This document shows, one piece after another, positions 38,319 to 39,169 of a DNA stretch of 64,000 nucleotides. Source of the stretch: Promethearchaeota archaeon (lineage in GTDB: Archaea > Asgardarchaeota > Lokiarchaeia > Sigyniarchaeales > SOKP01); assembly GCA_018238625.1 (NCBI GenBank), contig JABCSY010000004.1, positions 1 through 64,000 of the forward strand, given 5' to 3'. The notes below the pieces were generated by a model. That model saw nothing but the letters and a program-made list of their open reading frames with translations. It did not search any database and was not told where the DNA came from. Within the stretch, counting starts at the first letter, position 1, and every line of letters begins with the position of its first letter. A program made the position numbers and the translations under genes.

Positions 38319-38355
38319 GATTTAATAATGGTATTGCGTCTATATAAGGTTTTTT

Positions 38356-38422
38356 GTTCGCATCGAACTTCGAAGTTCGTTCGAACTTCTCAAAGTCAAA
38401 CTATATTAAACCTTTCGAACTT
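38356..38422. promoter_or_regulatory. cluster of CGAACTT sites including a 16-bp perfect palindrome
   Basis: CGAACTTCGAAGTTCG (38364-38379), further CGAACTT at 38382-38388 and 38416-38422, GTTCGcatCGAAC at 38356-38368; lies between divergent genes. Confidence 0.7.
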
Positions 38423-38469
38423 AATCAAATTAACAACAAAAAAAAATAAAAAAAAAGAGGTAAAATAAA

Positions 38470-38544
38470 ATGAAAAAGGATGAAAATAGAAAACTCATAA
38501 AAATGGTAGAATTTAACCCAGCAAATTTAATTTGTAGATATTAA
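38470..38544 (+). CDS. micro-ORF 1 (24 aa) MKKDENRKLIKMVEFNPANLICRY
   Basis: ATG with GAGGT SD at 8-nt spacing, shared with two neighbours. Confidence 0.6.
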   Translation: MKKDENRKLIKMVEFNPANLICRY

Positions 38545-38616
38545 TTAAATAATATTTTTTTTATATAATTTTTAAACCAAAAAAAATTAAAAAAAACAAA
38601 AACGAGGTAAGATAAA

Positions 38617-38688
38617 ATGGAAAAGTACGATGAAAGATTGATAATAATAAGAAACGCGGGATACATTCCTGAGCGTTTAGAGTTTTAA
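38617..38688 (+). CDS. micro-ORF 2 (23 aa) MEKYDERLIIIRNAGYIPERLEF
   Basis: ATG with GAGGT SD at 8-nt spacing; C-terminal GYIPERLEF resembles micro-ORF 3. Confidence 0.65.
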   Translation: MEKYDERLIIIRNAGYIPERLEF

Positions 38689-38792
38689 CCTAAATTAATT
38701 TTTTTTAATTCAACATTCAAAATTTAACCAAAACAAAAAACAAATCAAAAAAATTAAAAAACAACCAAAAAATAAAAACGAGGTAAAATGAT

Positions 38793-38867
38793 ATGAAAAG
38801 AAAAGAAAAGGATACCCAAACAATCCTAAACCCGACGGGATATAATACTGCAACATTAAGATTTTAA
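38793..38867 (+). CDS. micro-ORF 3 (24 aa) MKRKEKDTQTILNPTGYNTATLRF
   Basis: ATG with GAGGT SD at 8-nt spacing; C-terminal GYNTATLRF resembles micro-ORF 2. Confidence 0.65.
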   Translation: MKRKEKDTQTILNPTGYNTATLRF

Positions 38868-38900
38868 ATTAAATTTTTTTTGTCTTTTTATTTTTACTCC

Positions 38901-39169
38901 TTATTTATTAATACTGCTTTCTATTTCGCTTATTCTTTTTTTACCCATTCTAGTTATCGTGTAATTTCTCTTACTAACTTTGTGAATATAACACTTCTCA
39001 ATGAATAAGCGAAGGTATTTTGATAAAGTTGCTTGACTTATATTTACAAGATCCGATTTAAAATCAGACCATGAACAATATTCGTTAGTATAGAGCATCC
39101 AGAGAATGCAGTATTCAAATTTTTGGGAATTATCTAGAAATTTGTTTAAGATTTCTTTAGATGGATAAA
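38901..39169 (-). pseudogene. truncated copy of the N-terminal winged-helix domain of the 989-aa regulator
   Basis: YPSKEILNKFLDNSQKFEYCILWMLYTNEYCSWSDFKSDLVNISQATLSKYLRLFIEKCYIHKVSKRNYTITRMGKKR aligns with regulator N-terminus; homology continues upstream of the only ATG (39098); no TPR portion. Confidence 0.65.

Follow-up and report, generated by a model that had tools for sequence, protein, structure and literature searches.

The locus described here lies in a 64,000-nt stretch of lokiarchaeal DNA, which we call the window. Three tandem micro-ORFs (A, B and C) stand divergent to the gene of a large regulator with winged helices and TPRs, and the two arms share a promoter region (Table 1). 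A previous, sequence-only reading had reported the three micro-ORFs, each preceded by GAGGT-N8-ATG, and all of its coordinates, Shine–Dalgarno (SD) motifs and peptides match ours; it had overlooked the divergent wHTH–TPR regulator, the shared operator, a further gene that relatives carry in the operon (gene D) and the orphan arrays described below. The arrangement GAGGT-N8-ATG has four occurrences in the window, compared with an expected 0.84, three of the four lying inside 340 bp, and a strong 5-mer SD near the start is found at only five of the 40 ORFs of at least 200 aa in the window. Measured from the start of the regulator gene, the start codons of A, B and C lie at 151, 298 and 474 nt. 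For C, the second ATG had been preferred as the start, a choice borne out by homologues that begin with GAGGTAAAAGAATATG or GAGGTAAAAAAATATG and do not have the upstream ATG-ATA-TGA. The proposed common C-terminal pattern is approximate: beyond the L, FNPANLICRY runs two residues longer than YIPERLEF and YNTATLRF.

Table 1. Coordinates of the genes and candidate regulatory features of the locus (positions in the window)
Feature	Position	Strand	Description
Regulator, 989 aa	35349..38318	-	wHTH 21-75, wHTH 109-162, helical middle 181-390, TPR superhelix ∼436-986
TATA-like box, regulator gene	38341..38346	-	TATATA, ∼23 nt from regulator start; putative function
Candidate operator	38364..38388	.	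Palindrome CGAACTTCGAAGTTCG 38364-38379 and conserved 20-mer TTCGAAGTTCGTTCGAACTT 38369-38388
TATA-like box, peptide operon	38402..38409	+	TATATTAA; aligned in relatives as TATATAAG/TATATTAA; putative function
Shine–Dalgarno of A	38457..38461	+	GAGGT, 8 nt to ATG; present before homologues too
Micro-ORF A	38470..38544	+	MKKDENRKLIKMVEFNPANLICRY, 24 aa, stop 38542-38544
T8 tract after A	38555..38562	+	Possible archaeal terminator; putative function
Shine–Dalgarno of B	38604..38608	+	GAGGT, 8 nt to ATG 38617; conserved
Micro-ORF B	38617..38688	+	MEKYDERLIIIRNAGYIPERLEF, 23 aa, stop 38686-38688
T8 tract after B	38699..38706	+	Sequence feature
Shine–Dalgarno of C	38780..38784	+	GAGGT; in relatives conserved or GAGTG
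Micro-ORF C	38793..38867	+	MKRKEKDTQTILNPTGYNTATLRF, 24 aa, stop 38865-38867
T8 tract after C	38874..38881	+	Sequence feature

The two spacers (38545-38616 and 38689-38792) have a common layout of stop codon, T-run, (T)TTAA(A)CC, A-rich stretch and GAGGT, and the T-runs behind every micro-ORF are conserved in the alignment of arrays. Each spacer could possibly serve its micro-gene as a terminator plus promoter, or as a processing unit. We also considered a role of the repeated T-tract/A-rich/SD spacers at the RNA level only; the codon-level evidence favors proteins. Convergent to C, an ORF at 38901-39098 (minus strand) encodes a 65-aa winged helix that resembles the N-terminal wHTH of the regulator; it is probably a truncated regulator copy, since no ATG, GTG or TTG start is visible for what looks like its full domain.

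The micro-ORFs are conserved in related genomes

Searching 99 relatives at the DNA level recovered homologous arrays from genomes of the same genus, at 67%–81% identity. Not fewer than 11 other genomes of this genus (Lokiarchaeia MAGs) carry such arrays. They encode clearly related peptides, with GAGGT or GGAGG standing 8–10 nt before each start. Homologues of A were recovered from 10 arrays (consensus MRRxEKKDVRxVEGFNPxNLVxRF) and those of C from seven (consensus MKRKExDxKTILNPTGYNIATLRY); family B has the consensus MEKxEKRxIIIxNAGxxPERxxF. A profile of B, searched against 25 genomes of the genus, matched 20 sequences over their full length (E ≤ 5e-9) and one, containing a stop, in part (E = 3e-7); the next matches were only noise (E ≥ 0.05).

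The pattern of indels points to translation. In pairwise comparisons of a six-array alignment, all 24 gaps inside the ORFs were multiples of three, compared with 26 of 114 outside, at similar nucleotide identity (0.755 within ORFs and 0.739 outside). Frame-breaking indels in relatives, which the sequence-only reading had named as evidence that would count against it, were thus absent. Amino-acid changes numbered 70 against 82.7 under random placement (p = 0.003), with family B driving the difference, and A and C were near neutral between close pairs. The simple pN/pS ratio was 0.70 for A, 0.52 for B and 0.48 for C; frame-shift controls separated B best, and A did not clearly exceed one of its shifted frames. 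Overall, these comparisons strongly support the three micro-ORFs as real, conserved genes. Neither NCBIfam nor Pfam contained a match to the micropeptides, and inspection of the peptides by eye found no recognizable export signal, the N-termini being charged and free of hydrophobic stretches. Conserved genes of 22–30 codons form a whole class in these genomes, below the usual length limits of annotation. A diverged version of C (MRRKEKEVKTILNPFGGLSELYLLLDF...; G000:C73:5981, locus L066) is also present in the window's own genome; it overlaps the terminal part of a gene for a NosD-like repeat protein and looks like a relic.

Descent of A, B and C from tandem duplication, as had been proposed, is plausible and moderately shown by sequence similarity. 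Similarity within the array of the window is significant (permutation p = 0.0000–0.0095), but profile–profile comparison recovers only the first few residues at the N-terminus. In a sister system (G009:C8), the three peptides (MNGKGKEIIVQNAGYNPIYIIF, MNRKENGKEIVVKYASYNPIYIIY and MKKANKEVYVRFASYNPRFMSF) are unmistakable paralogues (z = 7–9). That genome carries both an orthologue and a paralogue of the regulator, with a distinct peptide trio or pair beside each, the trio just named belonging to the paralogue.

A large regulator with two winged helices and a TPR superhelix

The regulator matches Pfam HTH_45 and TPR families (TPR_2, E = 1.9e-27), and its winged helices also resemble the Sso10a, Sta1 and Lrs14 families below the cut-off. 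An AlphaFold2 model (pLDDT 84) predicts a long TPR superhelix at residues ∼436–986 together with wHTH-like secondary structure. A fold search of the PDB with the whole model returned generic TPR superhelices at low TM-scores, Tom71 (3fp4, 3lca) among them, and the same search with the middle domain gave nothing significant, with a weak TFIIB-cyclin-like resemblance. The best matches in profile searches of NCBIfam and the PDB were likewise generic TPR and wHTH families only, and no viral copies of the regulator were seen in IMG/VR at the sensitivity used.

Members of the regulator family are present in 53 of 149 relatives (E ≤ 1e-20), range from 630 to 1011 aa and include many paralogues in Lokiarchaeia. 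Among distant homologues of ∼990 aa, the two parts of the protein diverge at different rates, the wHTHs being 50%–61% and the TPR halves 34%–37% identical.

Micropeptide genes accompany the regulator family

In the relatives, the array lies divergent beside orthologues of the window's regulator gene. We quantified this linkage by counting SD-preceded ATG ORFs of 20–33 aa located 100–1000 nt divergently upstream of de-duplicated regulators. At least one such micro-ORF accompanied 19 of 25 regulators of the ∼990-aa class, which share ancestry, so that these counts are not independent. The class had 29 micro-ORFs in total against 0.40 expected from dinucleotide shuffles; the comparison with shuffled sequence that the earlier reading had suggested thus did not reproduce the arrays. 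Micro-ORF-bearing promoters were found for four of 20 regulators of the ∼835-aa class and eight of 31 of the ∼635-aa class, and for three of 280 other genes at the same loci, taken as a control. The linked peptides are 22–32 aa long, and in the ∼990- and ∼835-aa classes F or Y is the last residue of 23 among 33; they differ greatly between regulator clades (e.g., MRKIREPTIIINNNQIGYNRPFINY, MKTNRRNKEKQVKNIKNYPTGYNPQYFRY and MRVKRMKKKTRLIIISNDVGSCHSRYISY).

Most relatives carry an additional gene ahead of A, gene D, which encodes 70–99 aa, usually starts with MAQ or MVQ and has C-terminal tails such as LGYRNNLINF or FRNYGVF. It has no known family in NCBIfam and its Pfam matches are insignificant. 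Because gene D comes first, the first micropeptide of the relatives lies ∼430–540 nt from the regulator; gene D is absent from the window, where the distance between regulator and A is only ∼150 bp.

Several regulators of the same fold stand without micropeptides and have other divergent neighbors, such as GTPase or histidine-kinase-like genes. Family members of ∼825 aa without micropeptides (L131, L132, L140, L143 and L157) share, on the divergent side, a conserved histidine-kinase-like gene (MQDVENVYQ...) with another conserved gene behind it. Six loci (L114, L120, L122, L123, L133 and L220) have a different micropeptide family, of 26–30 aa and ending in ...NPxKYxFGxKDL, divergent to ∼635-aa regulators; a Ras-like small GTPase gene often comes next. 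In the divergent operons of one regulator clade (L111, L115, L121 and L108), a Zn-ribbon microprotein of 31–32 aa (e.g., MKKRIRINCMKCGKEIKLDFTDSRAICKDCGR) is found among the micropeptides.

The shared promoter holds a candidate operator that is single copy in its genome

Between the two TATA-like boxes stands CGAACTTCGAAGTTCGTTCGAACTT. The conserved 20-mer within the candidate operator is single copy in its own genome, even when three mismatches are allowed. When up to two mismatches are tolerated, 11 of 25 genomes of the genus have one copy each, always at the divergent promoter, and the others have none. ACTTC/GAAGT repeats persist at the corresponding promoter position of more distant regulators, and half-sites average 3.3 at the promoters of ∼990-aa regulators with peptides versus 0.38 at 312 control promoters. 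An unbiased search for the full palindromic arrangement, GAACTTC-N4-GAAGTTC, across 149 genomes turned up 13 sites, nine of which lie within ∼120 bp upstream of regulator-family genes; the remaining four loci are without a regulator.

The sequence evidence strongly supports a regulator-controlled divergon, with the micropeptide operon on one side and the gene of a wHTH2–TPR transcription regulator on the other. Repeats of the GAACTTC/GAAGTTC type in the common promoter region are the predicted binding site of the regulator, which very probably controls the micropeptide operon through this operator; binding would control its own gene as well, the sign of regulation being conjectural. With 38364-38388 as practically the sole predicted site of the regulator in the genome, the simplest reading is an autoregulated switch with essentially a single target.

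Possible roles of the peptides

TPR superhelices are a peptide-binding fold that often recognizes a free C-terminus, as Tom71 does with the Hsp70 tail. The conserved part of the micropeptides extends to the stop codon, and a peptide–receptor pair fits the TPR fold, the aromatic C-termini and the faster divergence of the TPR part. Cytosolic peptides of 22–30 residues, or their conserved C-terminal ∼10 residues, which close with an aromatic residue bearing a free carboxylate, might then bind in the TPR groove and alter the activity of the regulator, giving a feedback or sensing loop of the Rgg-SHP/RRNPP kind. We put forward this feedback tentatively, at a little under an even chance.

Orphan loci bear on this question. 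Eight pairs of related peptides (A′–B′; L266, L267, L268, L269, L270, L271, L272 and L273, in genomes G014, G017, G002, G005 and G018) stand without a regulator, for example MEKSDIKALKAQSNYNSFELQYLKFACEIGKE with MDKYEKRTIIIKTPDAYLERIDF. They share a nearly invariant promoter, AATGTTCAAGAGTCCATTCATAGTTTA, which is different from that of the divergon, and occupy conserved sites, either between CCA-adding-enzyme-like and EF-2-like genes or near a CDP-alcohol-phosphotransferase-like gene (named by eye from their translated sequences). The promoter motif has nine matches in the genus, of which eight precede A′–B′ pairs. The ninth (L294; G008:C31, minus strand, ∼3995) precedes a small ORF ending in YYLNPEKFRFSLKNL and then a D-like ORF, which ties the orphan-type promoter to the NPxKYxF family. 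Because these pairs lack a regulator, such peptides can be separated from it and may have another target.

A different role is accordingly conceivable, in which the peptides are the output of the system, tiny intracellular effectors or adaptors whose C-terminal tail binds another protein, and the regulator senses some other signal. The orphan pairs, at conserved sites and behind a strictly conserved promoter of their own, speak for it, as does the presence of family D and the Zn-ribbon microprotein in the same operons of relatives; we nevertheless consider it somewhat unlikely, since the peptides vary strongly between regulator clades as the DNA-binding half stays conserved, and the operator is local and single copy, as in a self-contained loop. 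We think it improbable that the regulator governs the expression of micropeptides destined for secretion or modification (as RiPP-like, antimicrobial or killing peptides). Several short tandem precursors with an SD each and rapid sequence change would suit such products, but inspection shows neither a leader nor a signal-like hydrophobic stretch, RiPP-modifying or transporter genes are not consistently adjacent in the ORF lists examined, and Pfam and NCBIfam hold no match. We give very little weight to translated leader or attenuator elements, for which translation itself would matter and not the peptide: the T-tract behind each ORF means that read-through could depend on translation, but C-terminal residues and the length to the stop are conserved, and the genes downstream from C vary between genomes, leaving no common regulated target. 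Finally, chance ORFs in A/T-rich intergenic DNA, an explanation that very short ORFs with individual pN/pS of only 0.5–0.7 might invite, are refuted for practical purposes by the exclusively in-frame indels, the excess over shuffled sequence (29 vs. 0.4) and the clean profile separation.

Comparison with known peptide-sensing systems

In Firmicutes and their phages, intracellular TPR receptors are known to mediate communication by peptides. The RRNPP receptors (Rgg-SHP, PlcR-PapR, Rap-Phr, PrgX, NprR and AimR) have a single XRE/HTH_3-type HTH as their DNA-binding domain. Our putative peptide–receptor pair resembles these systems in that a short ORF adjoins the gene of an intracellular TPR regulator whose DNA-binding part is N-terminal, in the conserved local operator and in the several paralogues per genome; the divergent gene layout is shared with rgg-shp and RopB-LCP. 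The search criteria for RRNPP systems include a propeptide of 10–100 aa within ∼400 bp of a receptor with TPRs, as is found here with peptides of 24, 23 and 24 aa, and validated systems have propeptides of 21–50 aa (PMC10075063). At 989 aa, the lokiarchaeal regulator is far longer than the 250–500 aa set for receptors by RRNPP_detector (PMC10075063). It also differs in its two archaeal winged helices (HTH_45), in an operon that holds as many as three peptide genes besides gene D, in peptides that on inspection lack a Sec- or PptAB-type export signal and in being archaeal, with no sequence relation to RRNPP detected in profile searches, whose best matches were generic TPR and wHTH families. Because receptor size, HTH type and export signal depart from the RRNPP pattern, we do not assign the locus to this family; it may be RRNPP-like in its working at most.

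Among open-licence papers, we found no precedent for RRNPP-like signaling in archaea or for peptide signaling in Asgard archaea. A broader proposal, which we hold to be somewhat unlikely, is that Lokiarchaeia have many paralogous wHTH2–TPR receptors, each with rapidly diversifying leaderless micropeptides behind a single-copy divergent operator, and that peptides from unlinked orphan loci act on the receptors in trans or compete with the cognate ones; this would be an independently invented form of TPR peptide sensing, possibly between cells. The locus offers testable sets of receptor, peptide and operator in Asgard archaea. Should the peptides prove to be ligands, regulation by self-sensing or between cells would come into view in the archaea most closely related to eukaryotes; otherwise, what remains is a conserved family of micropeptides that is new and has a clear regulator.

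In architecture and logic, the likeness is greatest to Rgg-SHP and to the leaderless RopB/LCP of Firmicutes; in RopB/LCP, a TPR receptor is paired with a tiny divergent peptide gene lacking a secretion signal, and the TPR domain of the receptors diversifies faster than the DNA-binding domain (PMC10518010). The lokiarchaeal locus shares the leaderless divergent peptide gene and the faster-diverging TPR part; LCPs, however, are ∼8 hydrophobic residues long, whereas the lokiarchaeal peptides have 22–32 aa and a charged N-terminus, and the receptors are unrelated. With archaeal HTH_45/Lrs14/Sta1-like regulators, the common ground is the N-terminal winged helices, which match HTH_45. Those regulators are short and single-domain, whereas the lokiarchaeal protein joins two winged helices and a middle domain to a TPR superhelix of ∼550 residues.
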